Shown piece by piece: positions 5,795 through 59,943 of a DNA stretch of 64,000 nt. The DNA is from Nitrococcus mobilis Nb-231 (GTDB taxonomy: Bacteria > Pseudomonadota > Gammaproteobacteria > Nitrococcales > Nitrococcaceae), in the NCBI RefSeq assembly GCF_000153205.1, contig NZ_CH672427.1, positions 871,671 through 935,670 of the forward strand. The letters run 5' to 3'. Numbering within the stretch: position 1 is the stretch's first letter; each line of letters opens with the position of its first letter. The notes below the pieces were generated by a model. That model had not been told where the DNA came from. It ran no database searches and saw nothing but the letters and a program-made list of their open reading frames with translations. The position numbers and the translations under genes were made by a program.

Positions 5795-6211
5795 AATTCA
5801 CATCTATATCGACCGTACCGAGGCGCAGGAGTTGATCGCCAAAGTCTTGCCCTGGTCAGTTGTTCGCTGAGCACGGTCAATGTTTTTAATGGCGATTTCG
5901 CCTGTGGCGATCAAGTGACGCCGCGGCCACCGTCGTTGACGGCCCATCATCAATCGTGAAAATCAGTCCATCAAAGGTGGCGCAGATCAAGCCCGAGGGC
6001 ATTACAGGACGCTACTACGTCAGTCTGCACAGTGCGATCGCCGAGGCGGCGCCACTCGATCAGTCTAGCGATGAACGGTTTCCGATCATTGGCAGCACCC
6101 CTCGAGCTGGATCAGCTGTTCGAGGGCGTCCCAATGATGATATCCGTCCCCGGGTAGAGGCGGAAAATTGCCGACATTAACAGCACGTGACCCGGGCAAG
6201 GGCGCATTCAC
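5795..6211. other. Intergenic stretch without a convincing gene
   Basis: This 417-base stretch between the convergent amidotransferase and methyltransferase genes has no long frame with coding character. A 30-codon frame from the ATG at 5778 overlaps the amidotransferase end and stops at 5870; it could be the start of a lost gene, but I cannot identify it. Confidence 0.5.
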
Positions 6212-9091: not shown

Positions 9092-10258
9092 CTAGTTTTT
9101 GCCGGCCTCCGCCGCGATCGACCCGCGCGACATTAATTGGCGAATACGCGCCACGGCGCGCTCCATATCATCCAGTGGCTGCCCGGTTGCGCTCGCCGCT
9201 TGCTCGCCAAACGCCGTGATCAGCCCCCGCTCCTCGAGCACCCGATGATAGGCGGCAAAATCACGCGCCGGCTTGATCAGACCCCAATAAACGAGCCACT
9301 GGAAAGCAGACTCACCCAGCCGATTCCCCGCTGCCTGCACTCCTGCGTCGGCGCGATGATCCGCTCGGCGGCGTCCTCGCCGGCGCCCGGGCCAATAGTA
9401 TACTGCCACTGGCTTGCCGGTGGCGCAGGCTTCGATCGCCAAAGAGGCACTGTCCGCCGTGACGATAAAGCGATCCGCCAGCCGCAAAAACCCTAGATAC
9501 GGGTTGTCTGGATCCTCCGGGCACCAAGCATAACGATACGTCGGGCAATCCACGGCCTCGAACAGCGCCTTCACGGCGTCACGGCGCGTTCTGGGGCTGG
9601 TGGTAAGCAACAGCGCCCCACCCGTTGCCTGCACATAGCGGCTTACCTCCCGACCCAGCCGGTGCGCCGTCACCCGATCCAATATGTAGCTGGAACTATT
9701 GCCGCCGACCAGCAATGCGATCAGCGGTCGCGGCAGATGGCGCAAGCGCGGCGCCCAACGCGCCGCAGCCTGCTCCAGGCGATGGGGGTCGATCCGGTTG
9801 AGTGGCGCGGTCAGATGAAGCACGTTAGACCGGGCGGGCAGCCGATACTGCGGCAGGGTAATGATCAAATCGAAGCGATGCAGCGGGGCTTGCGCATGCA
9901 GCAAATGCACCAGTCGAGTGTGCCCACCGGAGCGCTTCTTGATCCACTGGGCGATCGGCGCACTGCGCCGCGACGCCGCGATCACCAAATCCGGCCACGG
10001 CGGGCGCAACGGACTGCAACGCTTTCGTCTAAGGCTGACCGCAGTGCTACCCAGAACGAGGTTGGGACATAGATTGAGGATGTTGTAAGCGAGGCGTTTA
10101 GCCTCGTACGGCCAGCCGAGCGCCTCGGCGAGCGCAAGCATCTGCGCGTTACCGCCGGCGCCTTTACCGAGCAAGACCCAGACGCGCGGCACCCGGGCCG
10201 TGGGTACTCCAGCCCTCGCCAACTCGACGTCGGCCGTCGGTTGCGAGGCGCCGCTCAT
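9092..10258 (-). CDS. ELM1 family (DUF1022) protein, stand-alone copy
   Basis: The 388-residue product belongs to the ELM1/DUF1022 family, whose bacterial members resemble GT-B glycosyltransferases. Visible marks are the opening PRVWVLLGKGAGGNAQMLAL, LGWPYEAKRL, PPWPDLVIAASRRSAPIAQW, a glycine-rich LIALLVGGNSSSYILD and the C-terminal FIVTADSASLAIEACATGKPVAVYYW. Its ATG overlaps the stop of the upstream fusion gene by four bases (ATGA). The C-terminal half of that neighbour is a paralogue, so the two may act as a pair in glycan assembly. Confidence 0.8.
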   Translation of the reverse strand: MSGASQPTADVELARAGVPTARVPRVWVLLGKGAGGNAQMLALAEALGWPYEAKRLAYNILNLCPNLVLGSTAVSLRRKRCSPLRPPWPDLVIAASRRSAPIAQWIKKRSGGHTRLVHLLHAQAPLHRFDLIITLPQYRLPARSNVLHLTAPLNRIDPHRLEQAAARWAPRLRHLPRPLIALLVGGNSSSYILDRVTAHRLGREVSRYVQATGGALLLTTSPRTRRDAVKALFEAVDCPTYRYAWCPEDPDNPYLGFLRLADRFIVTADSASLAIEACATGKPVAVYYWPGRRRGRRRADHRADAGVQAAGNRLGESAFQWLVYWGLIKPARDFAAYHRVLEERGLITAFGEQAASATGQPLDDMERAVARIRQLMSRGSIAAEAGKN

Positions 10259-12810
10259 GACACCGACTCCGTGCGTCCTTCGACGGCACAGTTCCGATCA
10301 GCGGGGCGCACCGGGCGCGGTTTTTCGGGCGTGCGCGAGGCATCATCGTGATCATAAAAGCCCAGTCGCTCGCGCACGCGAGCGGCGAGCTCCGCGCTCT
10401 CCCGAAACGGCACGCGGGATCGCAACTCCAATGGAGCGCCGAACATCTGTGCTACGCCGCGTTCGAGCAGGGCCTGATACAACGCGGCCGTATCGCGGGC
10501 CGGCAGTACCCATGCCCGGTCGATCAAGCGGGCGCAAAGGTATTGCAGACCGCGCTGGGGCCGTACGCTGCCGCGTTTGTTCCGTGGCTGGGCTTGGGCC
10601 TGGCGGGTCACCCAACGGGCGAAGCGGTCCCAGAGCCTGACGCGCTCCGCAATCGGGTAGATATAAAGCGGTTTATCGGTAGCGGCCGCCTCCGCCAGCA
10701 TCGATTCGCTGTCCCCCGTCACCACGAGCACATCCGCGGCGCCCAAATAGGCGAAGTAAGGATTATCCGCCTCGTCTCTACGCCATTCATGCACGTATTC
10801 GGCGCCACCAATCCCGAGCTTGAGCGCCGCGCTCGCGCGGGTACCGGTGCGCCGGCTGGTAACGGCCAACGCCACTCCACCCGCCCCTTGGGCGAACGCC
10901 TGCAGGTCCTTGCCCAAACGATACGCGAGCGCCGTATCAAGTATGGAATGCTTGCTGTCACCACCCACCAGCGCCACCACGCGGGGACGAGGCAGCCCAG
11001 CGAAGCGCTCCGCTCGACGCTCGAGCGCGCCTCGAAGCCGCTCCCTGCTCACCGGATGCACGGGCAGCAGTGTCTCGATCCGGTTCGCCGCCAAAGGCAA
11101 GCCGAAGTGCACGCAGCCGATCAGCAAATCGGACGGCCCGCTCGGACCGTTTTTGCGACCCAACAGCACGGCGCGCAGAGCCGGATTCTCGCAGCGCAGC
11201 CAGCGCGCAACCCGGGTGGGAAACCAGCCAGCAGCGATCACCACATCGGGCCACGGTGGGCGCAGTTCACCGCCTCGGCCCGGCCTGGGCGACCAGGCCG
11301 GCCAACCAAGCCGCTGCACTATCCATTGCCACAAAAGTGCCCAAGGCAGCGTTTGCAGCAACTTGATCTCATAAGGCCAGGCAAGCGCCTCGGCCAGACC
11401 CACGGCTTGTGTGGTATGTCCGGGTTTGCGGTGCGCCAAAACCCAGACGCGTGGCGCACCGCCCACCAGCCGCCCGCCTACCCGCGTCGCCTGGGTCCGC
11501 CGCCCGGCGCCATCCCGGGTGTTCAACACCAGGTGGTAGTGTACGCCCGGGTGGCGGCGACTCGCCTGCTCGAAGCAGGAAAACCAGCGGGCCGGGCGAC
11601 GCGGTGCGATCTCCAGCGTGCTGCCATCCGGTAACCGTTTAAGCACCGCGGCATCGTCCACCTCCACATGCAGCAAGCGATCGCTCAACGCGAACAGCTG
11701 CTCGATTAGCCACGGCAAATCCTCATCCGGAAAGTATTCCAAAGCACGTCGACAGAGTACGGCATCGAAGGACTGCGCAGCCCCCCCCTTCTCCCAGGGC
11801 GGATAGTCCGGCTCGCTGCGCTCAACCACCCAGTCGGCGGCCCGCTGTACGCGCTCATCAGACAGTGCCGTGCATCCCGAGACGAAGCCGAACTCCAAAA
11901 TCGTGCGGGCGTGGGATTGCTGTAACAAGCGTTGGACCGCCGGCCAATCCGAAAACCCGGCGTCGACTGCGGTGCTTGACGAGTCGGCAACGGCTGCCGT
12001 CAGGCGGCGAAAATGCGCCTGTAAGGCACGATAACCGGCGCTGGGAGTGGATGCATCGAAGAGCTGATAACCCGCTTGATCGGCCGAGCGCTCCAACTCC
12101 GACCAAAGCGCACCGACCGGATTGTGCCAATAAACGTAATCATCGGGAAATGGCAGCCACGGCTGGGTCTGCAAGGTGGTGAAATGCACCAGTCGGGACC
12201 GGCCTGGGGTGTATTCGCTGTCACGCGCGTTCCAAGCGCCATCCAAGCGGCCCCATGTTCCCGAAACCGCCAACGCCTTGGCCTCGAGCTGCTTGCGGCG
12301 CCGCCAGCGCGCGCGCGCCAAGGTCCAAACACGGACCATGCGCGCGCAGTCGATCAACATCACCGAGGTATCCCGCGGCTGGATGGAGAGGAACCCATGC
12401 CCCTGCATCGGCGTATCGAACAGCTCAGCAGGATCAGCGAGATAGATTTGGTCAGTGTCATTATAGATTGCCCGCCCCACACCGCCTGCAAGCTCCGGTA
12501 TGGCAAAGCGATAGGCGGTGAAGCCGGTCAACCACCAGCGCCGATCGAAGCCGGGCAGGTCCTTTAACAGATAAATCTCGTAGCGGCGCGCCGGATCTCT
12601 TACCTTAGCAATGGACCACACGAACACCCGCTCCGCGCGGAACTGAGCCCCCTCAGTGCCAAGAAAGATCCGCACCGGGGGTTTATGACTCTCCCCTGTC
12701 CCCGGCTCTGCCGGCAACACCACGCACTCCAGCTCGGGCCACCGCTTGCGGCTTCTGGCCGGATCCTTCTGTGCGAGGCCCGCGAACACGCGTTTGATCA
12801 GAAATGCCAT
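10255..12810 (-). CDS. Three-part protein: GT8-like domain, methyltransferase-like segment, ELM1 (DUF1022) domain
   Basis: The 851-residue product has three regions. Residues ~45-250 resemble a GT-A glycosyltransferase of GT8 type, with RIFLGTEGAQFRAERVFVWS, YEIYLLKDLPGF and a DxD-like AIYNDTDQIYLADP. Residues ~285-440 look like a methyltransferase fold (ARTILEFGFVSGCTAL, FDAVLCRRALEYFPDEDLPW), but the glycine-rich SAM motif is degraded. Residues ~455-820 form a full ELM1 domain (PRVWVLAHRKPGHTTQAVGL, WPDVVIAAGWFPTRVARW, VVALVGGDSKHSILD). It is probably an envelope glycan enzyme. The downstream gene encodes a second ELM1 protein and overlaps by four bases. Confidence 0.75.
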   Translation of the reverse strand: MAFLIKRVFAGLAQKDPARSRKRWPELECVVLPAEPGTGESHKPPVRIFLGTEGAQFRAERVFVWSIAKVRDPARRYEIYLLKDLPGFDRRWWLTGFTAYRFAIPELAGGVGRAIYNDTDQIYLADPAELFDTPMQGHGFLSIQPRDTSVMLIDCARMVRVWTLARARWRRRKQLEAKALAVSGTWGRLDGAWNARDSEYTPGRSRLVHFTTLQTQPWLPFPDDYVYWHNPVGALWSELERSADQAGYQLFDASTPSAGYRALQAHFRRLTAAVADSSSTAVDAGFSDWPAVQRLLQQSHARTILEFGFVSGCTALSDERVQRAADWVVERSEPDYPPWEKGGAAQSFDAVLCRRALEYFPDEDLPWLIEQLFALSDRLLHVEVDDAAVLKRLPDGSTLEIAPRRPARWFSCFEQASRRHPGVHYHLVLNTRDGAGRRTQATRVGGRLVGGAPRVWVLAHRKPGHTTQAVGLAEALAWPYEIKLLQTLPWALLWQWIVQRLGWPAWSPRPGRGGELRPPWPDVVIAAGWFPTRVARWLRCENPALRAVLLGRKNGPSGPSDLLIGCVHFGLPLAANRIETLLPVHPVSRERLRGALERRAERFAGLPRPRVVALVGGDSKHSILDTALAYRLGKDLQAFAQGAGGVALAVTSRRTGTRASAALKLGIGGAEYVHEWRRDEADNPYFAYLGAADVLVVTGDSESMLAEAAATDKPLYIYPIAERVRLWDRFARWVTRQAQAQPRNKRGSVRPQRGLQYLCARLIDRAWVLPARDTAALYQALLERGVAQMFGAPLELRSRVPFRESAELAARVRERLGFYDHDDASRTPEKPRPVRPADRNCAVEGRTESVS

Positions 12811-13034
12811 GCGGTTGGCTCCAAACTGCAGCGAAATCCGAAAATCACGGCTCAGCCGTCACGGTTTGGTCATCGTATTGGGTTTGACCGGCACGTGCAC
12901 TACGCGCACGGCCATTCCTACGCCAGTTTCGTCCGTTCGGCTTCGGAGGCGAGCCAGCGACCACCCGATCGCCCGGTAGGTACACGCGGCCGACGTAGCA
13001 TATAATGGCCGCGGCGGACAATTAGAGGAATGAC
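12811..13034. promoter_or_regulatory. Divergent promoter region with a consensus -10 box
   Basis: This 224-base region separates the minus-strand glycan genes from the plus-strand sulfotransferase. TATAAT at 13001-13006 matches the sigma-70 -10 consensus and lies 28 bases before the ATG at 13035, with GAGG at 13024-13027 as ribosome binding site. No good -35 hexamer is evident at 17 bases. A promoter for the minus-strand operon should also be here, but I could not place it. Confidence 0.5.
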
Positions 13035-13988
13035 ATGGTACAAATACCCGACCGGTACCAACGCGCCGCGGTGATCGGTGGCACGGCCTGGCTCCCCGAG
13101 ACACTGCGCGTGCACGCCCGGCGCACCTTGCTCGGTACGCTGCAGCGCCGCCAGGCTCGCAGGGCCAACGTGGTGCTCATCGTCCACCCCAAAAGTGGCG
13201 GCACCTGGCTGCGGGTTATGCTCTTTCGGCTGTTTCAACGCAAATACGATCTCCCGGCACGGCGGGTGATGAAAACAGACGAACTCCAGCGCTACAACCA
13301 AGCCTTGCCTCGGTTCATCGTCAGCAACGGGCATTACAGCTACGAGGCAGCCGTTCGCGAGGTTTTGACCAACGAATCCGCTGACGACAAGCAGCTGATC
13401 TTCCTCGCCCGCCATCCTTGCGACATCGCCGTATCCTGGCATCTCCAGTTCACCCGCCGAATCTCGGCAGCCAAGCGTGAGCTCATTCTGCACGAGCTGC
13501 ATCGGCCGATCGATTATAAAACCATCCCTCTGTGGGAGTTTGTGATGCACCCCGAACTCGGGCTGCCAGGGCTGATCGATTACCACAATCAATGGGCCGA
13601 GTTCTTCGCCGGCCGTAGCAACGGTCTCATCGTGCGCTACGAGGATCTGCGGGCCGATACCCGCGCTACGCTGCAACGCATCACGGCTCGCTTGGGCGAG
13701 GCATTCAGCAGCGCGGAACTCGATGAGGCGATCGAATTCGCCTCCTTCGACAACCTGCGCCGGCTCGAGGAGGCCAACTACTTCCACAATGCCAGCCTGC
13801 GGCTACAGGACCGCGGCGATCTCAGCCGCTACAAAGTGCGGCGGGGCAAGGTAGGCGGCTTCCGCGACGACTTCGAACCGGCGCAGGCAGACGAGATGGA
13901 AGCGCTCGTGCGCGCCCATCTGAGCCCGATTTTGGGCTATAGCGGGCCTGTCACCCCAGGCGCGCTAGCTGCCAGCCAACGGGCCTAG
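13035..13988 (+). CDS. Sulfotransferase domain protein (Sulfotransfer_1 type)
   Basis: A 317-residue protein with the classic PAPS-binding elements: the 5'-phosphosulfate loop HPKSGGTWLRVMLF (residues ~53-66), the 3'-phosphate strand IFLARHPCDIAVSWH and a C-terminal RRGKVGGFRDDF that replaces the usual RKGxxGDW loop. This is the cytosolic sulfotransferase architecture, distinct from the shorter-motif protein at 7289. It most likely sulfates a sugar or lipid-linked intermediate of the surrounding glycan pathway. It is transcribed away from the ELM1 genes. Confidence 0.87.
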   Translation: MVQIPDRYQRAAVIGGTAWLPETLRVHARRTLLGTLQRRQARRANVVLIVHPKSGGTWLRVMLFRLFQRKYDLPARRVMKTDELQRYNQALPRFIVSNGHYSYEAAVREVLTNESADDKQLIFLARHPCDIAVSWHLQFTRRISAAKRELILHELHRPIDYKTIPLWEFVMHPELGLPGLIDYHNQWAEFFAGRSNGLIVRYEDLRADTRATLQRITARLGEAFSSAELDEAIEFASFDNLRRLEEANYFHNASLRLQDRGDLSRYKVRRGKVGGFRDDFEPAQADEMEALVRAHLSPILGYSGPVTPGALAASQRA

Positions 13989-14078
13989 CGCGCCAGGCAA
14001 TGGAGATGTACTCGACGTGTACAGTGCAGACTCTGTGACTGCGCTTGGAGATAGCGAACGCCCGTGGTTCGCCGATGA

Positions 14079-14492
14079 TCATGGAGTGAGCCCCCTAGCT
14101 AGTTTCAGTTGCGGTTCGATCCTTGCGAGATGCAGATAGTCATTGTCGTTATGGAGCAGCAACAGCTTGTGCTCGATGGCGATACGCGCAATCAAACAAT
14201 CTATCGTGGAGCGGACGGTGATGCCCTGATGGCGGCAACGAACGTATAAATGTGCGGCCTCGGCATGACTTCGTACGAAATCTGTTGGGTGATAAAACCG
14301 CTGGCTGCCGAGATAATTGCGTAAGTGCTTAAAATCGCGCTCGCTATTGGCGCCCTGGAGCACTTCCTGATAAATCACGCCGGTGATTCCGTAGGGCAAG
14401 CGTTGATCAAGCAATACGCGCAGCATTCTGGCGGGGCCGGTATCGCGTTGGCGGAAAAGATCGATCCATACTGAGGTATCAATCAGATACAT
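14079..14492 (-). CDS. vapC: VapC-type PIN domain toxin
   Basis: A 137-residue PIN-domain ribonuclease with the conserved acidic residues in place: MYLIDTSVWIDLF at the N-terminus, Glu in VIYQEVLQG, Asp in STIDCLIARIA and Asp in LLHNDNDY. The start at 14492 is set by this MYLIDTS motif; the longer open frame upstream overlaps the antitoxin. It overlaps the vapB gene by 14 bases, the usual coupling of toxin to antitoxin. Expected to cleave tRNA or rRNA when free of VapB. Confidence 0.92.
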   Translation of the reverse strand: MYLIDTSVWIDLFRQRDTGPARMLRVLLDQRLPYGITGVIYQEVLQGANSERDFKHLRNYLGSQRFYHPTDFVRSHAEAAHLYVRCRHQGITVRSTIDCLIARIAIEHKLLLLHNDNDYLHLARIEPQLKLARGLTP

Positions 14493-14700
14493 CACCGCCC
14501 CGATCTTGGCGCAACCGCTTGTGGTCGTAGTCAGGATCGATTCGCACTTTGCCCACCAACTCCAGAACATCCTTACGCTGATGGTTTTCCACAAACTCCT
14601 TGAGCGCAAGGTGTACCAGTTCCCGCTTGCTCCGGACCTTGGCCAAACGCAACGCCTGCGTGATCAGCTCATCATCCAACTCGATATTGGTGCGCATCAT
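14479..14700 (-). CDS. vapB: VapB-type antitoxin
   Basis: A 73-residue protein with an N-terminal ribbon-helix-helix-like segment (MRTNIELDDELITQALRLAKVRSKRELVHLALKEF; given here as contiguous family signature pieces MRTNIELDDEL, ALRLAKVRSKREL and VHLALKEF) and an acidic/basic tail that would occupy the VapC active site. AAGGAG precedes the tandem ATGs at 14700 and 14697. It is the first gene of the module, and the palindrome just upstream is its probable operator. Confidence 0.9.
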   Translation of the reverse strand: MMRTNIELDDELITQALRLAKVRSKRELVHLALKEFVENHQRKDVLELVGKVRIDPDYDHKRLRQDRGGDVSD

Positions 14701-14714
14701 TCAATGCTCCTTAT

Positions 14715-14744
14715 TACACCATCAAAAGTGTACATCATGGTGTA
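14715..14744. promoter_or_regulatory. Palindromic operator candidate of vapBC
   Basis: TACACCAT (14715-14722) and ATGGTGTA (14737-14744) form a perfect 8-bp inverted repeat with a 14-base spacer, 15 bases upstream of the vapB start. VapB and VapBC complexes commonly autorepress through such paired half-sites. Confidence 0.65.
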
Positions 14745-14825
14745 TTGACTTATGTAATCAAGCTGATTGTAATCCAGTAGAACTCGGCAAGTACAAGGCG
14801 CTGGTGGGAAGGGGGCTACCACGGC

Positions 14826-16124
14826 ATGGCATCGATTGAAAAGGCGGCGGCAACAACCCCATTCACTCCCGCCGAATGCGGTGAGAGGGCGCCTAGCCGG
14901 AGCCTGGGTAAAGCCCACATCGCCTTGTTCATGCGGGACTTGGAGGGCGGCGGAATCCAGAAAAACCTGTTGCGGCTAGCAGAGAGTTTCAGCCAGCAGG
15001 GGCATACGGTCGATTTGGTGGTCTACAAGGCGAAAGGGCCGCACCTTGCGCATATTCCACCCGGCGTCAACCTCGTTGCCCTAGGATGCATGGCATTCAA
15101 ACCGGCCGCCCGGGGATTGGCGTTTGGCTACCTGCTCGCAGCCGACCCGCCGAAATTACGCCCGTCGCTGCAACCGCTGCGGCTGGCGTGGGACGTATCG
15201 CCCTGGCTCAAATGCCTGCCGGCGCTGACGCGGTATCTGCGCCGAACACGGCCGCAGGCCCTACTCTCCGCGGGCAACACCCTGAACTGCACGGCTGCAC
15301 TGGCCCGACGGCTGGCAAATACCGCAACCCGGCTGGTGGTGAGCGAGCGCAATCATCTCTCAGCCTATACCGAGGGGAAACGACAGCGGCGACGCTGGCG
15401 TTGTCTGCCCGGATTAATCGCGCGAACCTACCCCTGGGCCGATGCTACCGTCGCCGTCTCCAACGGCGTGGCGGACGACCTCGCGCTGACCGCAGGTCTG
15501 TCGCGCGAGCAAATTACCACCGTTTACAATCCGATCGTTTCGGCCGAGCTATTTGAACGGGCCAAGGCGCCGCTAAGCCATACTTGGTTCGACTCCGATT
15601 CTATCCCCGTGATACTGGGAGTAGGGTCTCTAAACGAGAAGAAAGATTTCCCGACCCTGTTGCGCGCCTTCGCGCGCGTCAGAGAGCAGCGGGCAGTTCG
15701 GCTTCTGATCCTGGGCGAAGGCGATGGACACGCACAGCTGGGGATGCTAGCCGAGGAACTCGGGGTCGCCGACGACGTCGCCCTGCCCGGCTTTACGGCC
15801 AATCCGTTCGCCTATATGGCACGGGCCGCCGTGTTCGTGCTGTCTTCGGTCTATGAAGGCTTGCCGACTGTGCTCATCGAGGCACTTGCTTGTGGTTGCC
15901 CGGTCGTATCGACCAACTGCCCAAGTGGTCCGGCCGAAATTCTACAGGGCGGTCGCTATGGACCATTGGTGGCAGTGGGCGATGATCGCGCCCTGGCTCG
16001 AGCCATCCTCGGCGTGCTGGATAACCCACCGGACCGGGAACAGCTGCGGCGACGCGCGGCCGAGTTTTCGGTCGAACGTGGCAGCGAGCGGTATTTGGAG
16101 ATACTTTTGGGAACCTCGAAATAA
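14826..16124 (+). CDS. Glycosyltransferase family 4 protein
   Basis: A 432-residue GT-B enzyme. The N-terminal domain begins HIALFMRDLEGGGIQKNLL and the C-terminal Glycos_transf_1 domain shows VILGVGSLNEKKDFPTLLRA, ILGEGDGHAQLGMLAEELGV and the donor-binding VYEGLPTVLIEALACGCPVV with its catalytic-type Glu. It is closely related to the convergent gene at 16210, which shares the GGGIQ/GGGVQ opening and the same length, so the two are probably diverged duplicates. Retaining sugar transfer to a surface glycan is likely. Confidence 0.9.
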   Translation: MASIEKAAATTPFTPAECGERAPSRSLGKAHIALFMRDLEGGGIQKNLLRLAESFSQQGHTVDLVVYKAKGPHLAHIPPGVNLVALGCMAFKPAARGLAFGYLLAADPPKLRPSLQPLRLAWDVSPWLKCLPALTRYLRRTRPQALLSAGNTLNCTAALARRLANTATRLVVSERNHLSAYTEGKRQRRRWRCLPGLIARTYPWADATVAVSNGVADDLALTAGLSREQITTVYNPIVSAELFERAKAPLSHTWFDSDSIPVILGVGSLNEKKDFPTLLRAFARVREQRAVRLLILGEGDGHAQLGMLAEELGVADDVALPGFTANPFAYMARAAVFVLSSVYEGLPTVLIEALACGCPVVSTNCPSGPAEILQGGRYGPLVAVGDDRALARAILGVLDNPPDREQLRRRAAEFSVERGSERYLEILLGTSK

Positions 16125-40936: not shown

Positions 40937-41074
40937 TCAACAGGAGCACGGCCAACATATCGATAGCGCGATAATAACCTCGTCCCCGTCATATGAGGCG
41001 TGGGAATGAAGTGGTGCATGGTCATCGAAGCACATACGAATGATGATTCCGTAGAATCGGCAGAGCTCAGGCAT
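40937..41074 (-). pseudogene. DUF4160 protein gene, copy A, truncated by frameshift
   Basis: The minus strand encodes the DUF4160 start MPELCRFYGIIIRMCFDDHA with the downstream HSHASYDGDEV, but two extra bases (relative to copy B at 59407) shift the frame after the 'DEVII' segment and it stops after 45 residues; similarity to copy B ends shortly after. DUF4160 proteins are small partners of DUF2442 proteins, a pair found in many genomes and thought to behave like toxin-antitoxin modules. The start overlaps the DUF2442 stop by eight bases. Confidence 0.7.
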
Positions 41075-41333
41075 CCGCGCTCAACGTCCACGCACCTGGC
41101 AGCACCTCTTCGACGGATTTGCCAGTGAGCTGTACATAGTGCGCATCCGGGCAAAGGTCCAGATCTTCACCCCATGCGATCGCTCCAGCTTCCGACACGT
41201 ACACCGTTTCAAAAAATGCCCGTTCGTTCCAACCCCTGAACACCCCGCGGCCGTCCAGATGAGATAAGTCGATCTCTCCCGCCGTGCCGTCAGAGTACCG
41301 TAGCCAGATTCGGTAGCCGTCCCGAGCTTCCAC
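41067..41333 (-). CDS. DUF2442 domain protein, copy A
   Basis: An 88-residue DUF2442 protein: GYRIWLRYSDGTAGEIDLSH, GRGVFRGWNERAFFETVYVS, GAIAWGEDLDLCPDAHYVQL. Compared with copy B at 59659, codon 3 after the expected ATG is a TAG stop (ATG ATC TAG against ATG ATC CGG), so translation would have to begin at the GTG at 41333. Whether this still works is unclear; with a broken partner gene the module is probably inactive. Confidence 0.75.
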   Translation of the reverse strand: MEARDGYRIWLRYSDGTAGEIDLSHLDGRGVFRGWNERAFFETVYVSEAGAIAWGEDLDLCPDAHYVQLTGKSVEEVLPGAWTLSADA

Positions 41334-52228: not shown

Positions 52229-52320
52229 GGCCCGAGGCACTTCACGGGTCAGACCAACGGCCGACCGACGAAAGCGAAGATGGGGTGCTGTCGAAGGAAA
52301 GGCCATCTATACTGCTTATA
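52229..52320. repeat. Imperfect ~90-bp direct repeat, left copy
   Basis: From GGCCCGAGGCACTTC to TCTATACTGCTTATA, matches the segment at 54913-55001 at roughly 70% by eye with a short gap. It sits about 190 bases before the 781-residue protein gene. The rest of the 51989-52504 stretch, apart from the terminator, holds no clear gene. Confidence 0.55.
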
Positions 52321-52504
52321 TCAATCGGCTGCAAGTTCATAATACGCTCTAGATCTTCTGCCATCATCAGCACCAGCCGCAGCGCCATCCTGGGCGTGGT
52401 GCCATTGCGACGCACCGCTTGCGCCAGATCGCTGCCGGCCGCCGCCCTAGCGATATCGCCGGATACCTCGGCCGGACGCTGACGAAGAGGGAAAGGAGGA
52501 CGAG

Positions 52505-54850
52505 ATGATCTCCTCGGACTTCGAGTACCGGCTCTACAGCGGCTCCGTAGCCGGGGTACCCATCGACCTGGCCCTCGCCACCGAGCTGAACGAGTTCATC
52601 GGCGGCCTCCGGCTCGCCACCGGGCGATCGATCCGCGACCAACTCGCCGACTTCTTCGCCGATCAGAACCTCACCTGGAGCTTCTTCGGAAACGAGTTCG
52701 ACCTTCGCCCCACCATCGACGACGCCATCGCCAACGTCGATGCCGCTCTCACCTTCGACCCCATCGAGCTCTTCTTGGGCCAAGGGCGCTGGCCGCTGAT
52801 CGGCCCCGTTTACGCTCGGCTGCGCTTCTACTTCGTGAGCGGGTTCGAGCTGCGGCTGCCCGAGGAGAAGGCCCTCGCCAACTGGCCCGACCTGCCGGCC
52901 CTGTTGGATCCGGACGCCGACCAGCTCCGGATCCAACTCAACGTGGAGCAGATCAGCTTGCTCGACGCGGGGCTCCGGGTCCATATATACAACCCCTTCA
53001 AAAACGAATGGCCTGAGCTGTTCACGGTGCCGCTGCTCTCGGGCACCGGGCTCTACGACGTCGCCACGCGAGTGGCACTCGGGCTCAGCGTCGAGCCGGA
53101 TGCGTATGTGATCGGCGCGGGCACGGGCCAACGGTTTCGGCCCGTCGTCCCGACGATTCTCCAGCGCGACTCCACCATCGACCGTGCCGAGTTCCGCTTC
53201 GGCCAGGTAGACGAGTGGGTGATCCTGGCGCTGGGATTCCTCTTCGGGCTGATGGGCACCCTCACCGCCGTGTTCCTGAGTCAGCTGCAGGTGGCGCTGG
53301 GCGAGCGGGTGCTCCAGAAAATCGAGGACGATCTCGAGGCCAAGCTGGCGGAGATCGACACCCCCACGATCTTCGATTTCCCCTCCATCGCGAAGTACGG
53401 GGCGGCCTTCGAGCGCCCGGTGACGGAGCAGGTGACCTTCGAGTACCGGCCGGGGATAGACGTCGTGGGCGGGCCGCAGAACCAGCGTGCGATCCACTTC
53501 CGGCACGAGGAGCCGGAGGATCCGCCGGACGGCGGCGGGTTCGACCCTCGCGATCTCTTCGACCCGGACAGCTTCACCAACCCGTTCGACCGGATCCACG
53601 ACTACGTGGACGTAGGCGACCTAATCGTGGACCTGTTCGACGTTTACGTCCCGATCCCGGACTACACGACGGCCATCGTGCCCCGCCAGGAAGTGGACGC
53701 CGCGGTGAGGCAGCTCGCGACCCCCCGCTTCCGCCTCCGCGACCGCGCCCTCCTGCACCTCCTGGCAGACGGGCTCCCTGCGCCGCTCCTGAGCGGGCTC
53801 CGCTGGTCCCAAGTGGACGTCCGCCGGCGGATCGTCGAGATCGGACCGCAAGGACGTACCCGGAGCCTCAAGATCAGCGCAGAGAGCGCAACGACGCTCC
53901 GGCTCTGGCGCGAGGGCCAAGCCCGATACCTGGCGCTGCCTGCCCTCCGGAATAGCCCGACGCGAGTCTTTCCCACTCCACAGGGCCTGCCCTTGGGTGA
54001 CCGCGGCATCGTCGCGGTGCTGCTCGCCTATGACCGATGGAAGGACATCCTGGACGGCTGGGAGGATCCGTGGGCCGAGCGGTACCGTACGGCCCCGCCC
54101 CTGCCGGACACGCTCGACACGCTCCTCGCCCTAGGCTATGCCGTCAACTTCGTCGTCCCCAACGTGCAATATGCCTTCCTCCACGCCGCGGACGGCTTCG
54201 CCCTCGTGTCGCCGGAGCTCGCGACCACCGATTACACCGGGGTCTACCCCCTGCCCCCGGACCAGGAGTTCGTCGTCCGCGCTCTCACGCCGCCGGACCC
54301 GCCACCGGTCGAGTTCTTCGACCCGACCGATCGCCCTCGGCTACGGCTCGCCACCCTGCCGCTGGAGCTGGAGCTGGCCGGCGCTGTGCAGGCACCCCTC
54401 CGGGCCACCGCGCGGGTCCGCGCCGATCTCGCGATTCGATTCCATCGCTGCCCAAGCTGCGTGGCCGGAAAGGAGGACCTGTTCCAGGACCTGCTCCGGA
54501 ACCTGCTCTGTCTCCAGGACGTGGGTCTGGTCGAGCTCCAGGGCAACCCGGCCGAGTTGCTCCAGTGCCTGATCCACCGGCACGCGATCGCGCTGATCCC
54601 GAGCGCCGAGGAAGGGGCAGCGACGGTCGAGAGCGTCGCCATCGACGACCCCGGGGGCTTCCCTCCAGGGTCGGCGGCGGAGTTGGCGGCGCTGCTCACG
54701 GCGACCCTGCCGCTCGTGCTCAGCCGAGCCATCCCGGTGCCCGTCCTCTTCGACTTCTTCCACCGGATTCCACTCGGCTCGCGCAACCGCGAGGCCGAGA
54801 CCCTGGCGGCGAAGAGCGGCTGGTTAACGCTGGTGCAGCCGCTGGTGTAG
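52505..54850 (+). CDS. 781-residue protein of unknown function with a degenerate recombinase-like segment
   Basis: No family recognised for the whole. Residues ~1-230 are acidic and look like a beta-rich domain (ELFLGQGRWPLIGPVYARLR). One hydrophobic helix lies at ~238-265 (WVILALGFLFGLMGTLTAVF). Residues ~407-500 resemble the first half of a tyrosine recombinase catalytic domain (RDRALLHLLADGLPAPLLSG, LRWSQVDVRRRIVEIGPQGR, TRSLKISAESATTLRLWREG), but the catalytic Arg is absent ('GLPAP') and the HxxR...Y half is missing. AGGAGG is followed closely by the ATG. The reverse-strand frame over the same bases has no natural composition. Confidence 0.6.
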   Translation: MISSDFEYRLYSGSVAGVPIDLALATELNEFIGGLRLATGRSIRDQLADFFADQNLTWSFFGNEFDLRPTIDDAIANVDAALTFDPIELFLGQGRWPLIGPVYARLRFYFVSGFELRLPEEKALANWPDLPALLDPDADQLRIQLNVEQISLLDAGLRVHIYNPFKNEWPELFTVPLLSGTGLYDVATRVALGLSVEPDAYVIGAGTGQRFRPVVPTILQRDSTIDRAEFRFGQVDEWVILALGFLFGLMGTLTAVFLSQLQVALGERVLQKIEDDLEAKLAEIDTPTIFDFPSIAKYGAAFERPVTEQVTFEYRPGIDVVGGPQNQRAIHFRHEEPEDPPDGGGFDPRDLFDPDSFTNPFDRIHDYVDVGDLIVDLFDVYVPIPDYTTAIVPRQEVDAAVRQLATPRFRLRDRALLHLLADGLPAPLLSGLRWSQVDVRRRIVEIGPQGRTRSLKISAESATTLRLWREGQARYLALPALRNSPTRVFPTPQGLPLGDRGIVAVLLAYDRWKDILDGWEDPWAERYRTAPPLPDTLDTLLALGYAVNFVVPNVQYAFLHAADGFALVSPELATTDYTGVYPLPPDQEFVVRALTPPDPPPVEFFDPTDRPRLRLATLPLELELAGAVQAPLRATARVRADLAIRFHRCPSCVAGKEDLFQDLLRNLLCLQDVGLVELQGNPAELLQCLIHRHAIALIPSAEEGAATVESVAIDDPGGFPPGSAAELAALLTATLPLVLSRAIPVPVLFDFFHRIPLGSRNREAETLAAKSGWLTLVQPLV

Positions 54851-54912
54851 AGGATATGGCCACTCGGATGACGGGGTGGGAAAGGGGGGGCGGATTCGGG
54901 CCATGGAAAACC

Positions 54913-55001
54913 GGTCCGAGCCACTTCGCGGATCAGATCGACGATCGGGCGCAGGCGAGGAGATGATTCTGTCGGACGAGAAGGGGTCTATACTGCCTAT
55001 A
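54913..55001. repeat. Imperfect ~90-bp direct repeat, right copy
   Basis: From GGTCCGAGCCACTTCG to TCTATACTGCCTATA, aligned with the left copy at 52229-52320. It ends in the same TCTATACTGC-TATA string, which looks promoter-like. The remainder of 54851-55377 has no convincing gene; a frame open from 55096 lacks a usable start until 55378. Confidence 0.55.
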
Positions 55002-55377: not shown

Positions 55378-56757
55378 GTGACGCAACAACAAACCGCCAT
55401 CGCAACTCGGATCGCCGATCTCCGCCTCACCGGATTCCCCGGATTAAGCTCCACCGCTTCCTTGCTCCGTGAGCTGCTGGACACGCCGGCCGCACTGCGC
55501 GAAGCGGTCAATGCCTCGGATTGGCCACGCACCGAGTTGTTGGGAATTCGCAGCATGGGAGTGGGATACGCAGCGCTACGCGTCTTTCAGGGCACCGAGA
55601 GAATGGCGACCCGCCGGCTGCGAACTGCCAGAGAGATCGATGGCGATCTCGCCGTATACCTGGATCAACCGGCCGGGGCTGACGGCCGCGGGTTGGCAGC
55701 AGGGCTCGGACGGGGTAACCATCTTCCTCCGCACGGTCACGACGTGGCGATCGTGAGTCTGTCCCGAGGTCTGCTCGGTGTCGTACACGCAGCGTTCAAC
55801 CTCACACTTCGCTCGGTACAGTCGGAGTCTTCAGCGCACTTCCACACCGAAACCACAAACGCGTTTCAGCGTATCGTCGAGGAGGTGGAGGCGCTGATCC
55901 GCGCCGGCCAGCTCCGGATTTACCACCGGATGACGTCTCGGGCCCCAACGGACGACGTGGTAGAGGAGGCCTGCGCGTTAGCCGGCATCATCGAGCAGAG
56001 CCTCCCGCGCCTCGCGCGCCCTCAGGCCAAGGTTTTCGTGGCGATGCAACGGCTCCGCGAAGAGGGAAAAGGCGGCGCCGCCGAAAATCTGGGCCGCCTG
56101 GCAATGCGTGCGGGGGCCCTGACCCGGGAAGCGACCGCTGCCCACGCGGCGAGTTACCGCATTGCCCTGAACCTGCTCAGGGATGAACCAGACGTCGACG
56201 TACTCGAGCTATACGACAAGGCGGCCGACCTCGCGTTCGACACGAAGCTCCCCAACGGCAAGGACACTCAACTCGCCCATATGGGCCGGCTCGAGGGGGG
56301 CGAGTTCGTCGAGGTGGAAGGCTTTGCAACGCGGGTGGAAGCGATTCAGCCAGGGGGCAGCGGGCTGGTCAGCCGCATCGAACTGCTCGACCCTTCGAGC
56401 CAAACCCGCGCGAGGGCGGCGGCGCTATTCATGCACCTGCCCCACCTGGGCGTGACTGACGGGGCCTTTTGCCGTCTGAGCGGGATTTTCCGCAAGAACT
56501 CTGCGCTGCTGGATGATTCGCCAGGCATCGAAGTGGATAGACTTTCGTTGGCAGATCTCAGTGACAAGAGTTGGCGAATCGCTTTTCTTAGATCCGCGAG
56601 GCGCTGGTATCAGCCGTGGCGAAACGGGCTCAATATGCACTGGTCGCTTGGTCCGCACCAGAGCGCGGCAGAGCCCCGCCGTCAGGCGAGCGTCGAAGGA
56701 GCCGGCGAGTTGATTTATCTTGATTTCATGAAGGATCTAATCGATCAGGGCGAGTAA
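55378..56757 (+). CDS. 459-residue protein of unknown function, possible OB-like domain
   Basis: The GTG at 55378 follows GGAGGG by seven bases and is chosen over longer frames from 55096. Residues ~100-140 hold a histidine-rich segment (GRGNHLPPHGHDVAIVSLSR). The middle is helical with many Ala and Arg. Residues ~310-400 look like a small beta-barrel (EGGEFVEVEGFATRVEAIQP, LVSRIELLDPSSQTRARAAA, TDGAFCRLSGIFRKNSALLD), comparable with OB-fold nucleic-acid-binding domains. No signal peptide. It is followed after 80 bases by a small coiled-coil gene and then the transglycosylase-like gene, all in the same direction, so an operon is plausible. Confidence 0.55.
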   Translation: MTQQQTAIATRIADLRLTGFPGLSSTASLLRELLDTPAALREAVNASDWPRTELLGIRSMGVGYAALRVFQGTERMATRRLRTAREIDGDLAVYLDQPAGADGRGLAAGLGRGNHLPPHGHDVAIVSLSRGLLGVVHAAFNLTLRSVQSESSAHFHTETTNAFQRIVEEVEALIRAGQLRIYHRMTSRAPTDDVVEEACALAGIIEQSLPRLARPQAKVFVAMQRLREEGKGGAAENLGRLAMRAGALTREATAAHAASYRIALNLLRDEPDVDVLELYDKAADLAFDTKLPNGKDTQLAHMGRLEGGEFVEVEGFATRVEAIQPGGSGLVSRIELLDPSSQTRARAAALFMHLPHLGVTDGAFCRLSGIFRKNSALLDDSPGIEVDRLSLADLSDKSWRIAFLRSARRWYQPWRNGLNMHWSLGPHQSAAEPRRQASVEGAGELIYLDFMKDLIDQGE

Positions 56758-56838
56758 CCCTCCACCGCCCTGGCCAGCGAGCCAGCTGCGCGGGCGGTCT
56801 CTTTTCGATTCCAGTCCACGGGGGTAAGGAGGTAGGCA

Positions 56839-57144
56839 ATGTCCGGTCCGTGCGAAGAACTGTACGACACTTTCGAGCAAGACTATGCCGCGTTCCAAAA
56901 TGCCCGTGATCAGCTTGCCGCGGCGGAGGAAAGTGTCTGGCTCATAGAAAGCGGTATCCCTTTGCATTGCAAGGGGAGCATACCGAGCGAAGACCCCGAA
57001 TGCACCGGCCTGTCACAGCAGCTCGGCGAAGCGCGGGCCGAGCTGGAGGCAGCCCAGCAGGCCGCCGACGAGGCTGCAAAGAAATCCGGCCAGTCGTTCT
57101 TCGTCTATTTGGCATGCAAGATCAAACATTTCTTCGAGGATTAG
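56839..57144 (+). CDS. 101-residue coiled-coil protein with paired cysteines
   Basis: AAGGAGG is nine bases before the ATG, so this small gene is clearly translated. The protein is helical and acidic with heptad-like Ala/Leu/Glu runs (DQLAAAEESVWLIESGIP, LGEARAELEAAQQAADEAAK) separated by a short loop containing Cys (LHCKGSIPSEDPECTG), suggesting a helical hairpin. It ends with a basic aromatic tail (VYLACKIKHFFED). No family recognised. It lies between the 459-residue protein and the transglycosylase-like gene. Confidence 0.65.
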   Translation: MSGPCEELYDTFEQDYAAFQNARDQLAAAEESVWLIESGIPLHCKGSIPSEDPECTGLSQQLGEARAELEAAQQAADEAAKKSGQSFFVYLACKIKHFFED

Positions 57145-57175
57145 GCGTGCGCATCGTCGCAGACGAATATCCGCT

Positions 57176-57215
57176 TACAAGAATGTCACCCGCCCATGCC
57201 GGTGACATTCTTGTA
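57176..57215. promoter_or_regulatory. Perfect 15-bp inverted repeat before the transglycosylase-like gene
   Basis: TACAAGAATGTCACC (57176-57190) and GGTGACATTCTTGTA (57201-57215) enclose ten bases. There is no T-run, so it may be a regulator operator or an RNA hairpin between the 101-residue gene and the downstream gene, rather than a terminator. Confidence 0.6.
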
Positions 57216-57306
57216 CTGAAACCGGTGCCACGCCACAGTCCTAGAAGGAGCGGATGGGCTGCGTATGCCGTACGCGCCCGTTCCGTGAACGGATTCAGAG
57301 TGCATC

Positions 57307-58692
57307 ATGCGATTCGTTGCAAATCTGCGCAATGAGACCATCGAAGCATTTGCAACGGAATCGATTCAGCCGCGCGCTTACCTGCTTTCATCCCACCGAC
57401 TAACCCCGGCCACACTAAAAGCCGCGGAAAAGATACGGGCGCTGGGGCTACCGCTGTTCGCGGACAACGGCACCAAGCCCATGATCGACGCTACGATCGA
57501 CCATTTCGCCGAACCGGCAAAACGATTACGGACGGAGGTCAAGCAGCTGCGCAAGGCGCTCGGCCATGTGCCCCGCGGCGCGGGCGTTCCGGCCGTATTG
57601 AGGGACCGGGCTTCACGACTCGCCCAGGCGGTGCTGGACCATACCCTCGAAACCTCGGAGGCCATCGACGCCGAAGCGCTATTGACCACCCAGCTATCGA
57701 TGCTGCCGACCGATCTCATCGCTCAGGAGGATTTTGCAACGGCTTGTCTCATCGCGCTGGACCTGGAGCGGGAGACGACCGGGTGGCGGGTCTCCCGATT
57801 CGACACTCGCAACCGGCGGACGCTACGGCTCTGGAAGCGCGTCGCCAACGATACCCGCTGCAAGGGAATCCGCGTACACGCGGTCTTGAGCGCTATGGAT
57901 TACAACACGGCACGCTCTGCAGGCAGGCTTGCCGCCCGGGCGGGAGTACGGCACGCCGCGGTCGGCATCGCCGGTATCACGCGTGACCCGAGCGCGACGG
58001 ATTTCTTCGTCATGGAAACCAAGAGCATCAGGCTCGCGCGACCCGTGCCGCGGCGCTACGTGCGGCTGGCTCAGATCATTCGGGGCTTTGCGGAGGGCTT
58101 CGGTGAAGCCGGACGACCCCCCGAAAGCTTTCACTGCCTGGGACTGGGAGCACCGTATCTGTTTCCCGTCACCGCCGCGGCGCTGGCCGAAGCGACGCGC
58201 GCCACCACGGATGCGACAAGCCCCATACACGCCGCTGTAAGAGATCGCGTGCTCTACGACCCGGTGAAAGACGGCGATCGCGCAAGCACCAAGGAAATCG
58301 TCGATCGCATCGTCAGAGGCGGCGACTGGCCGTTTTTGAGCCCGTTCACACGCGCCTTCCGCGAGAAGTTCGGACACGATCCCGAGGCGGCACGGAAGGC
58401 TTGGGCGGCGCTGGGAAAGCCCGCGATCACCAGGCAGCTGCTCGAGGTAGCAAGCCCGTTGACCGCCTCCTTGCCGCTTTTCGCCGACGCTGATGACGAG
58501 GTACGGAAAATCGCCGCGCGAGCATGGATTGCGCACAATCATTGGGTCCTTGGCGCGATCGCCGACAGCTTGCCGAATGAGAAAGGACGCCGTGACCTGG
58601 CTCTTTCCGTCATCGACAGATTGCTTTCGAACCCGCCGACGATGACAACACGCGGCCTCGCTGCCGCCCGCGAGGTTATCCTCAGCGATTGA
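57307..58692 (+). CDS. tRNA-guanine transglycosylase/DpdA-like protein
   Basis: The 461-residue product resembles the TGT superfamily TIM barrel. LPLFADNGTKPM (residues ~49-59) matches the first active-site Asp strand (TDSGGF in TGT). HAVLSAMDYNTARSAGRLAA and HAAVGIAGITRDPSATDFF fit the central strands. FHCLGLGAPYLFPVTAAALA (275-294) followed by TTDATSPIHAA (Asp302) matches the LGxG...D nucleophile region. The zinc-binding cysteines of bacterial TGT are not visible, as in DpdA, which inserts 7-deazaguanines into DNA. The function is inferred from motif similarity only. A C-terminal ~150-residue helical region follows. Confidence 0.5.
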   Translation: MRFVANLRNETIEAFATESIQPRAYLLSSHRLTPATLKAAEKIRALGLPLFADNGTKPMIDATIDHFAEPAKRLRTEVKQLRKALGHVPRGAGVPAVLRDRASRLAQAVLDHTLETSEAIDAEALLTTQLSMLPTDLIAQEDFATACLIALDLERETTGWRVSRFDTRNRRTLRLWKRVANDTRCKGIRVHAVLSAMDYNTARSAGRLAARAGVRHAAVGIAGITRDPSATDFFVMETKSIRLARPVPRRYVRLAQIIRGFAEGFGEAGRPPESFHCLGLGAPYLFPVTAAALAEATRATTDATSPIHAAVRDRVLYDPVKDGDRASTKEIVDRIVRGGDWPFLSPFTRAFREKFGHDPEAARKAWAALGKPAITRQLLEVASPLTASLPLFADADDEVRKIAARAWIAHNHWVLGAIADSLPNEKGRRDLALSVIDRLLSNPPTMTTRGLAAAREVILSD

Positions 58693-59129: not shown

Positions 59130-59360
59130 CTACATGGCCTCGCGATGTACGCGCAGCATCTCCTCGAGGCCCTCGGGGTCGCGCATCAGCTCGCGCAGCT
59201 GGGCCAGGGCGCGGTAGTGTTCCACCGAGAGCATGACCGCGGCCGGACGGTTGTCACGCATGACCAGCACGTGGTCGGTCTCACGGTTGGCAATCTGGCG
59301 CAGGGCCTCTGCGGCGGCACTGATGGATACGTAGCGTATAAGGGTACTCTCCGCCGGCAA
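59130..59360 (-). CDS. Phd/YefM family antitoxin
   Basis: A 76-residue antitoxin of the Phd/YefM group: YVSISAAAEALRQIANRETD, HVLVMRDNRPAAVMLSVEHY and RALAQLRELMRDPEGLEEML. The start is a TTG at 59360 with no clear ribosome binding site. After the final HREAM a TAG stop interrupts a frame that continues in phase for 26 more codons (GPSLEEYAAQRAGRHDLVGHEG) to a TGA six bases before the toxin ATG. The original protein may have been longer, and the amber codon may be a later mutation. Confidence 0.75.
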   Translation of the reverse strand: MPAESTLIRYVSISAAAEALRQIANRETDHVLVMRDNRPAAVMLSVEHYRALAQLRELMRDPEGLEEMLRVHREAM

Positions 59361-59406
59361 GGCGATGGCGTGACTATCAGATTATTATGCCTATCTATGC
59401 CGAAGC

Positions 59407-59628
59407 TCAGTCCAGAGGGTCGATTTTCCCGGGTGACTCCAGACGCTTCGCACGTCTCCAGGCTTCTCGCAGCTCGGATTGATGCAGCAAGGCCCACTCA
59501 ACCACAAGCCCTTGCGCTCTCGCTGGAAGATGTCCATGGAGCACGGCCAACGTATCGATAGCGACAACAACCTCGTGCCCGCCGTATGAGGCGTGGAAAT
59601 GAGGCGGCGCATGGTCATCGAAGTACAT
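59407..59628 (-). CDS. DUF4160 protein, copy B (N-terminus shifted)
   Basis: The 73-residue frame begins MYFDDHAPPHFHASYGGHEV and continues VVAIDTLAVLHGHLPARAQG, LVVEWALLHQSELREAWRRA, the complete C-terminal part of DUF4160. Upstream of it LCRFYGIIIR is present in phase, but a one-base deletion relative to copy A (GACTC for GAGCTC) puts the normal ATG out of frame. Translation may still begin at the internal ATG at 59628. Copy A has the opposite damage: intact start, broken end. Confidence 0.7.
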   Translation of the reverse strand: MYFDDHAPPHFHASYGGHEVVVAIDTLAVLHGHLPARAQGLVVEWALLHQSELREAWRRAKRLESPGKIDPLD

Positions 59629-59658
59629 ACGAATAATGATCCCGTAGAATCGGCAGAG

Positions 59659-59943
59659 TCAGGCATCTGCGATCAGCGTCCGCGCACCCGGCATCACCTC
59701 TTCGACGGATTTGCCAGTGAGCTGCATATAGAGCGCATCCGGGCAAAGCTCCAGGTCCTCGCCCCATGCGATCGCTCCAACTTCTGAGACGTGCACCGTT
59801 TCAAAAAATGCCCGCTTGTTCCAAGCCTTGAACACACCGCGGCCAGCCAGATGAGACAAATCGATCTCTCCCATCGTGCCATCAGAATACCGCAGCCAGA
59901 TTCGGTAGCCGTCTCGGGCTTCCACGTCAGCCGGCCGGATCAT
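59659..59943 (-). CDS. DUF2442 domain protein, copy B
   Basis: A 94-residue DUF2442 protein with an intact start: MIRPADVEARDGYRIWLRYS, GTMGEIDLSHLAGRGVFKAW, HVSEVGAIAWGEDLELCPDA. It is nearly identical to copy A at 41067 but has CGG where copy A has a TAG at codon 3. It precedes and slightly overlaps the DUF4160 frame, the usual gene order for this pair. Confidence 0.85.
   Translation of the reverse strand: MIRPADVEARDGYRIWLRYSDGTMGEIDLSHLAGRGVFKAWNKRAFFETVHVSEVGAIAWGEDLELCPDALYMQLTGKSVEEVMPGARTLIADA

Follow-up and report, generated by a model that had tools for sequence, protein, structure and literature searches.

Background

The tRNA-guanine transglycosylase (TGT) fold is already known from the Dpd restriction-modification system, from the DpdA and DpdA2 proteins of phages, from Cap10 of type IV CBASS (PMC11996544) and from BREX-related capture (BRC) loci (PMC12839542), a distribution in which enzymes of this fold recur at the interface between bacteria and phages. 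Hutinet et al. 2019 (PMC6884629) described DpdA2 of Vibrio phage nt-1. Cap10 belongs to the TGT family of enzymes and has been remodelled so that it binds the modified N-terminus of a protein (PMC11996544), and a glycine at position 2 of the partner protein is required in CBASS and in qatABCD (PMC13279940). Here we examine a set of three co-directional genes of Nitrococcus mobilis Nb-231 located within a window of 64,000 nucleotides (contig NZ_CH672427.1, positions 871,671 to 935,670; all coordinates given below for the window are counted from its first letter), which code for a protein with a predicted oligonucleotide-binding (OB) fold (gene 1), a small cysteine-bearing protein (gene 2) and a putative relative (gene 3) of the TGT/DpdA enzymes, which replace guanine within tRNA or DNA. 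A previous sequence-only reading of this stretch had proposed them as a candidate undescribed gene set, and a literature search, for which most subscription papers were outside reach, retrieved no publication describing the trio.

Our analyses lend roughly even credence to an autonomous, horizontally spread, three-gene nucleic-acid base-exchange cassette built around a new and very divergent TGT/DpdA subfamily. Gene 3 represents a subfamily that is new, as is its gene setting, within a fold class that is already known.

Structural affinity of the third gene

Gene 3 (57307..58692, plus strand) was called as an open reading frame (ORF) of 461 aa. None of the three genes gave a convincing match to Pfam, NCBIfam, PADLOC or PHROGs profiles, as anticipated by the claim that their families were unknown; the anti-phage models of PADLOC remained unmatched at E up to 1, and a direct sequence search of the PDB returned helical-bundle noise only. 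The AlphaFold2 model of gene 3, built from six sequences (predicted local distance difference test, pLDDT, 71.6; residues 1-302 well modelled), forms a (beta/alpha)8 fold whose eight strands follow barrel order; strand 3 leads into a long helical insertion (residues 57-130) and strand 6 into a beta hairpin. When this model was compared through Foldseek with 350,542 PDB chains, the best match was the DNA preQ0 insertase DpdA (7ui4, E 1.5e-4), which was also the sole match with E <0.001 among 910 candidates. Among viral models the best match was R9TGF0 of Vibrio phage nt-1 (464 aa), which probably corresponds to the DpdA2 of that phage (YP_008125322, also 464 aa), an identification made by phage and length rather than by comparing the sequences; the top viral matches otherwise comprised uncharacterised phage proteins and several annotated queuine tRNA-ribosyltransferases.

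The motifs ADNGTK and LGLGAP...D, on which the sequence-only reading had based its assignment of the enzyme, are present in the gene 3 protein, and two aspartates, D53 and D302, are invariant across the six homologues, whose identity outside the genus of the window amounts to 46-62%. Asp53 (codon 57463..57465, plus strand), within ADNGTK at the end of strand 3, is the predicted counterpart of the aspartate in the D-S/C-G-A/G motif of DpdA and TGT, and Asp302 (codon 58210..58212, plus strand; DATSPIHAAVRD), at the end of strand 8, is the predicted nucleophile. In profile alignments with hhalign, D302 was placed on D258 of bacterial DpdA (FDTTSPL..AFKD, strand 8) and on D266 of DpdA2 (YDSSTH), and D53 (LFADNGT) on D72 of phage 9g DpdA (IFLDSGA). 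The aligned aspartates of DpdA are those that we take to be catalytic. Column shuffles reproduced the alignment of an aspartate to all three DpdA families in 0 of 420 cases, and to two or more families in 3 of 420. With DpdA as the best structural match and the motifs in register with these aspartates, the proposed membership in the TGT superfamily holds at the level of the fold, where gene 3 appears to be a very divergent TGT/DpdA-superfamily member.

Comparison with the described systems places gene 3 apart from each of them. With the DpdA of bacterial Dpd restriction-modification systems (7ui4, NF041059) it shares the barrel, the D-x-G after strand 3 and, at strand 8, the motif H-x-L-G-x-A/G followed by a D-[AST]-[TS]-[ST]-P block, but it differs in the helical insertion and in lacking both a hidden Markov model (HMM) match and the CxCxxC motif; the trio, moreover, has OB and hairpin-like partners and no other Dpd gene, DpdB (DGQHR/ParB-like) being absent among the cassette genes and the neighbours examined. 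DpdA2 of phage nt-1 likewise carries H-x-L-G-x-G...P...AL...D-S/A-S/T and likewise lacks CxCxxC, a motif present in the bacterial DpdA and Tgt proteins checked and missing in DpdA2 and phage DpdA; however, DpdA2 is encoded in a phage gene cluster for preQ0 synthesis, with no OB or hairpin partner seen, and shows no detectable BLAST or HMM similarity to gene 3. The superfamily and the active-site layout are presumably also common to gene 3 and tRNA-guanine transglycosylase itself (Tgt, PF01702), from which gene 3 differs in the missing PF01702 match and zinc motif, in a profile score at chance level and in its partners. Cap10 of type IV CBASS is, like gene 3, a TGT fold recruited into a multi-gene accessory cassette, but it acts with the QueC-like Cap9 and a CD-NTase, neither of which is found in the trio, whose small proteins also lack glycine 2. 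In BRC systems (PMC12839542), too, a homologue of TGT belongs to a conflict locus that has spread horizontally, whereas the BRC partners PglZ, DUF6079, HerA/FtsK, STAND and GNAT are absent from the trio locus.

Membership of gene 3 in the Tgt or DpdA families proper was rejected on the grounds of the missing family model match, zinc site and DpdB. A TruD match (NCBIfam, best E 0.00045, in four members) was set aside because it covered about 30 residues of a 353-position model and fell 400 bits under the cut-off. As a separate observation, the DpdA2 genes in six phage records (L084, at 11913-13307, L085, L086, L087, L088 and L089) are labelled 'hypothetical protein', with GTP cyclohydrolase or QueC genes nearby.

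Distribution of the cassette

A scan of 84,980 species genomes, in which exact eight-residue matches were required, identified five relatives of gene 3, a number that the true membership, given this requirement, probably exceeds. These were found in a gammaproteobacterial metagenome-assembled genome (MAG) representing a sister species in the genus of the window (L007, 93% identity in gene 3), Marinobacter sp. SS21 (L008, 60%), an alphaproteobacterial MAG (L009, 62%), Modicisalibacter ilicicola (L010, 62%) and a Nitrospirales MAG (L011, 46%), so that the trio occurs in six genomes from at least four lineages. In all five loci gene 1 lies upstream and the small gene in between, in the same order and on the same strand; the adjacency of the three genes, for which conserved co-occurrence had been proposed as a check, was thus recovered in every genome bearing the cassette. 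Comparison with the sister locus gave ratios of nonsynonymous to synonymous substitutions (dN/dS) of 0.12, 0.13 and 0.20 for genes 1, 2 and 3, respectively, indicating that each of them encodes a protein and is subject to purifying selection, and their start sites are preserved in that locus.

Outside the sister pair the flanks are unrelated to those of the window: EamA and YcaO/OsmC in Marinobacter, TtuA-like and DEAD helicase genes in Nitrospirales, TctC in the alphaproteobacterium, and a PIN toxin and a TIR-nSTAND-WD40 protein in Modicisalibacter. The alphaproteobacterial copy is no farther from the window copy than the non-sister gammaproteobacterial copies are. No further member beyond the sister species was detected in some 1,200 other genomes (those around the host genome G000, Marinobacter, Halomonadaceae, Nitrospirota and the family of L009), and the gene 1 family was never found on its own among 398 genomes. 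Weak matches in three genomes (G016, G360 and G378) were dropped as short segments with E of about 0.0006-0.006. The trio has the appearance of a rare unit, comprising three genes and no more, that moves horizontally, its spread in this way being supported by the patchy occurrence, the unrelated flanks and the closeness of the alphaproteobacterial copy. No integration repeats were found around the window cassette. In L009, tRNA-Asn (GTT) and tRNA-Cys genes (9442-9735), the first of which starts 29 bases past the cassette end, form a possible integration site.

The two partner proteins

Gene 1 (55378..56757, plus strand; GTG start, 459 aa by ORF call) was modelled by AlphaFold2 (pLDDT 73.6) as a helical bundle (about residues 20-285) followed by a C-terminal OB fold (about residues 305-390), the latter a barrel of five strands in which a helix separates strand 3 from strand 4. 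Its Foldseek matches (best E 0.014; probability near 1.00 over 80-120 columns) were mostly OB domains of MCM, DP1, PolC, RecG, RPA, CST and SSB, in line with the OB-like character already attributed to it. Since these are mostly nucleic-acid-binding domains, it is a fair inference from the model that gene 1 encodes a nucleic-acid-binding protein.

Gene 2 (56839..57144, plus strand, ORF call) codes for an acidic protein of 101 aa with four cysteines (C5, C44, C55 and C93), and its description as coiled-coil-like was supported; its matches to PUMA, FliJ and tape-measure proteins were discarded as reflecting coiled-coil composition. The homologues are barely alignable (14-30% identity outside the sister pair), yet Cys-x36-38-Cys pairs stand at both ends of the protein in four lineages: C5-C44 and C55-C93 in the window, 3-42 and 59-97 in L011, 9-48 and 84-122 in L009, and 7-44 and 70-107 in L010. 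The Marinobacter protein (L008) retains the outer pair only (6 and 101). Residue shuffling reproduced the spacing at about 0.001, 0.008 and 0.0008 in the three other lineages with both pairs (joint 7e-9), a statistic that measures constraint and not independent origin, as shared ancestry contributes to it. The simplest reading of these sequences would be a hairpin of antiparallel helices that disulfides or metal hold together at either end, with a variable middle. In the window protein this middle is acidic and soluble; in the Nitrospirales protein (L011) it is hydrophobic, with a weak resemblance to SLATT_1 (E 0.0011, under the cut-off). The Marinobacter protein (L008, 7478-7990) carries a long Asp/Glu/Ile-rich C-terminal tail that is unique among the members.

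The strong ribosome-binding sites that had been ascribed to all three genes were recovered for gene 1 (GGAGG) and gene 2 (GGAGGT, a strong site), while gene 3 has none in the window copy or in any relative's genome. In genomes outside the genus of the window, gene 3 starts about 10-22 bases past the stop of the small gene, a short spacing that, together with the missing ribosome-binding site, suggests translational coupling of genes 2 and 3.

Proposed role and alternative explanations

In the base-exchange cassette that we favour, the gene 3 barrel would break a glycosidic bond through Asp302, with a covalent intermediate and the assistance of Asp53, and would thereby exchange or remove a base in a nucleic acid that the OB protein holds in place. 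For the hairpin, which is small and well translated, a role as regulator, adaptor or effector may be envisaged, and an encounter with a partner that itself keeps changing, for example phage, would explain its fast evolution. Marking or attacking DNA in conflict with mobile elements would be the likeliest role, be it anti-phage activity or DNA marking. The trio would offer a testable case of the TGT fold either performing a new base exchange or acting on a new target, with a clear active-site prediction (D53 and D302), in a compact, self-contained unit of about 3.3 kb that can be cloned from the Marinobacter or Modicisalibacter isolates.

Several results weigh against this interpretation. Residues 303-418 of gene 3 are poorly modelled, which leaves the C-terminal third unreliable, and the TM-scores against the PDB matches are low (0.35-0.38). 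The hhalign scores against the DpdA families are weak alone, being equalled by 9-18 of 420 shuffles; at E up to 1 no gene 3 member matched PF01702 (TGT) in any of the six cases, nor was NF041059 (DpdA, cut-off 200 bits) matched; the zinc motif CxCxxC is missing in all six members, and SAMD replaces the guanine-recognition Q/H-G motif after strand 5. Relatives of the trio were absent from the phages, plasmids and viral contigs searched, and defence genes are not consistently near the cassette. Finally, full-length QueC is encoded in five of the six cassette genomes, the sixth, Modicisalibacter ilicicola (G458), showing only weak partial PF06508 matches, so that this species probably makes no queuosine precursor de novo. 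The profile comparison with TGT and DpdA advocated by the sequence-only reading was accordingly divided, with no HMM match and a chance-level score against tRNA TGT on one side, and the register on the DpdA aspartates on the other. The further proposal that DNA or RNA is modified with 7-deazaguanines found no support in a cassette without zinc motif, DpdB or HMM match and with one host devoid of full-length QueC; a free 7-deazaguanine is a possible substrate of the trio, but the data do not demand it.

The main rival, which we consider unlikely, takes Cap10 as its precedent (PMC11996544): the barrel would no longer act on nucleic acid and would instead bind or process a protein, most likely the hairpin or else the OB protein, for instance one carrying a nucleobase conjugate. 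The altered base-recognition motif and zinc site are consistent with this, as is the small gene fixed beside the enzyme gene and endowed with a better ribosome-binding site. However, both catalytic aspartates are invariant, the trio includes a predicted OB fold of the nucleic-acid-binding type, the cassette has no QueC-like conjugating enzyme, and the required glycine at position 2 is missing in all six small proteins.

Somewhat harder to sustain, and in our view distinctly unlikely, is an accessory RNA-modifying enzyme whose base exchange would take place in an RNA, be it tRNA or some other, bound by the OB protein, perhaps in repair of, or resistance to, the action of RNA-targeting agents. 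The TGT superfamily works on tRNA, and gene 1 shows OB matches to aspartyl-tRNA synthetase structures and a weak tRNA_anti_2 match (E 0.12), but the host already has a normal, bona fide Tgt separate from the cassette (G000:C1:156429), in structure gene 3 comes closest to DpdA, a DNA enzyme, and to the viral protein that matches DpdA2, and not to tRNA TGT, and the profile score against tRNA TGT is reached by 235 of 400 shuffles. As a side observation, two genomes of the same genus (G002:C100:135957-136265 and G004:C46:21144-21506) have another ORF, divergent but PF01702-like (about 450-499 aa, 35 bits), that is separate from both the cassette and the normal Tgt.

More speculative, and rather improbable, is a new conflict system in which the TGT-fold enzyme would have as its target the trio's own fast-evolving hairpin with its cysteine staples, acting on it or conjugating it to a nucleobase, with the OB protein sensing foreign nucleic acid; the SLATT-like hydrophobic stretch of the Nitrospirales hairpin would then fit a membrane effector. 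The least probable explanation is a (beta/alpha)8 enzyme of metabolism that has no relation to TGT and whose motifs resemble it by chance. In its favour are the many other barrels next in the Foldseek list (E 0.002-0.1) and the one-family profile scores of only p ~0.02-0.04; against it are DpdA ranking first with a tenfold better E-value, a viral list led by uncharacterised phage proteins including the DpdA2-like one and several queuine transferase models, and three DpdA families aligning on two invariant aspartates.

Intergenic repeat and genomic neighbourhood

The sequence-only reading judged the class of the enzyme for the most part correctly and did not commit itself on the substrate, but it made too much of the hairpin and of the neighbourhood. 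The inverted repeat between genes 2 and 3 (57176..57215, no strand assigned; 18-nt arms of 94% complementarity, separated by 4 nt) is real in the window, but its 5' arm is lost in the sister locus L007. With no Rfam match at the repeat either, a riboswitch or conserved regulator was rejected, and the repeat is probably not part of the system.

Of the toxin-antitoxin and restriction relics reported around the trio, the former are represented downstream, on the minus strand (59130-59943), by a DUF4160 gene, a DUF2442 gene and a sub-threshold Phd/YefM antitoxin, while no restriction relics were seen near the trio in a search that was not exhaustive. A second DUF2442-like protein, whose start is very similar to that of the first, is encoded at 41067-41333, and the toxin-antitoxin-like module may be duplicated within the window. 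The comparison with a defence island stands weakly, and only for Modicisalibacter among the five non-window loci (PIN toxin and TIR-nSTAND), the Marinobacter, Nitrospirales and alphaproteobacterial flanks being housekeeping. In the Modicisalibacter locus (L010) the PIN-domain toxin (5688-6029) lies immediately upstream of the cassette and the TIR-nSTAND1-WD40 protein (11666-15973) about 2.3 kb downstream. Elsewhere in the window, a 2.7-kb segment (52260-54922) that is missing from the sister locus L007 holds an ORF of 781 aa (52505-54850) without Pfam match, in which a stretch about GLPAPLLSGLRWSQVDVRRRIVEIGPQGRTRSLKIS resembles, by eye, a tyrosine-recombinase motif.

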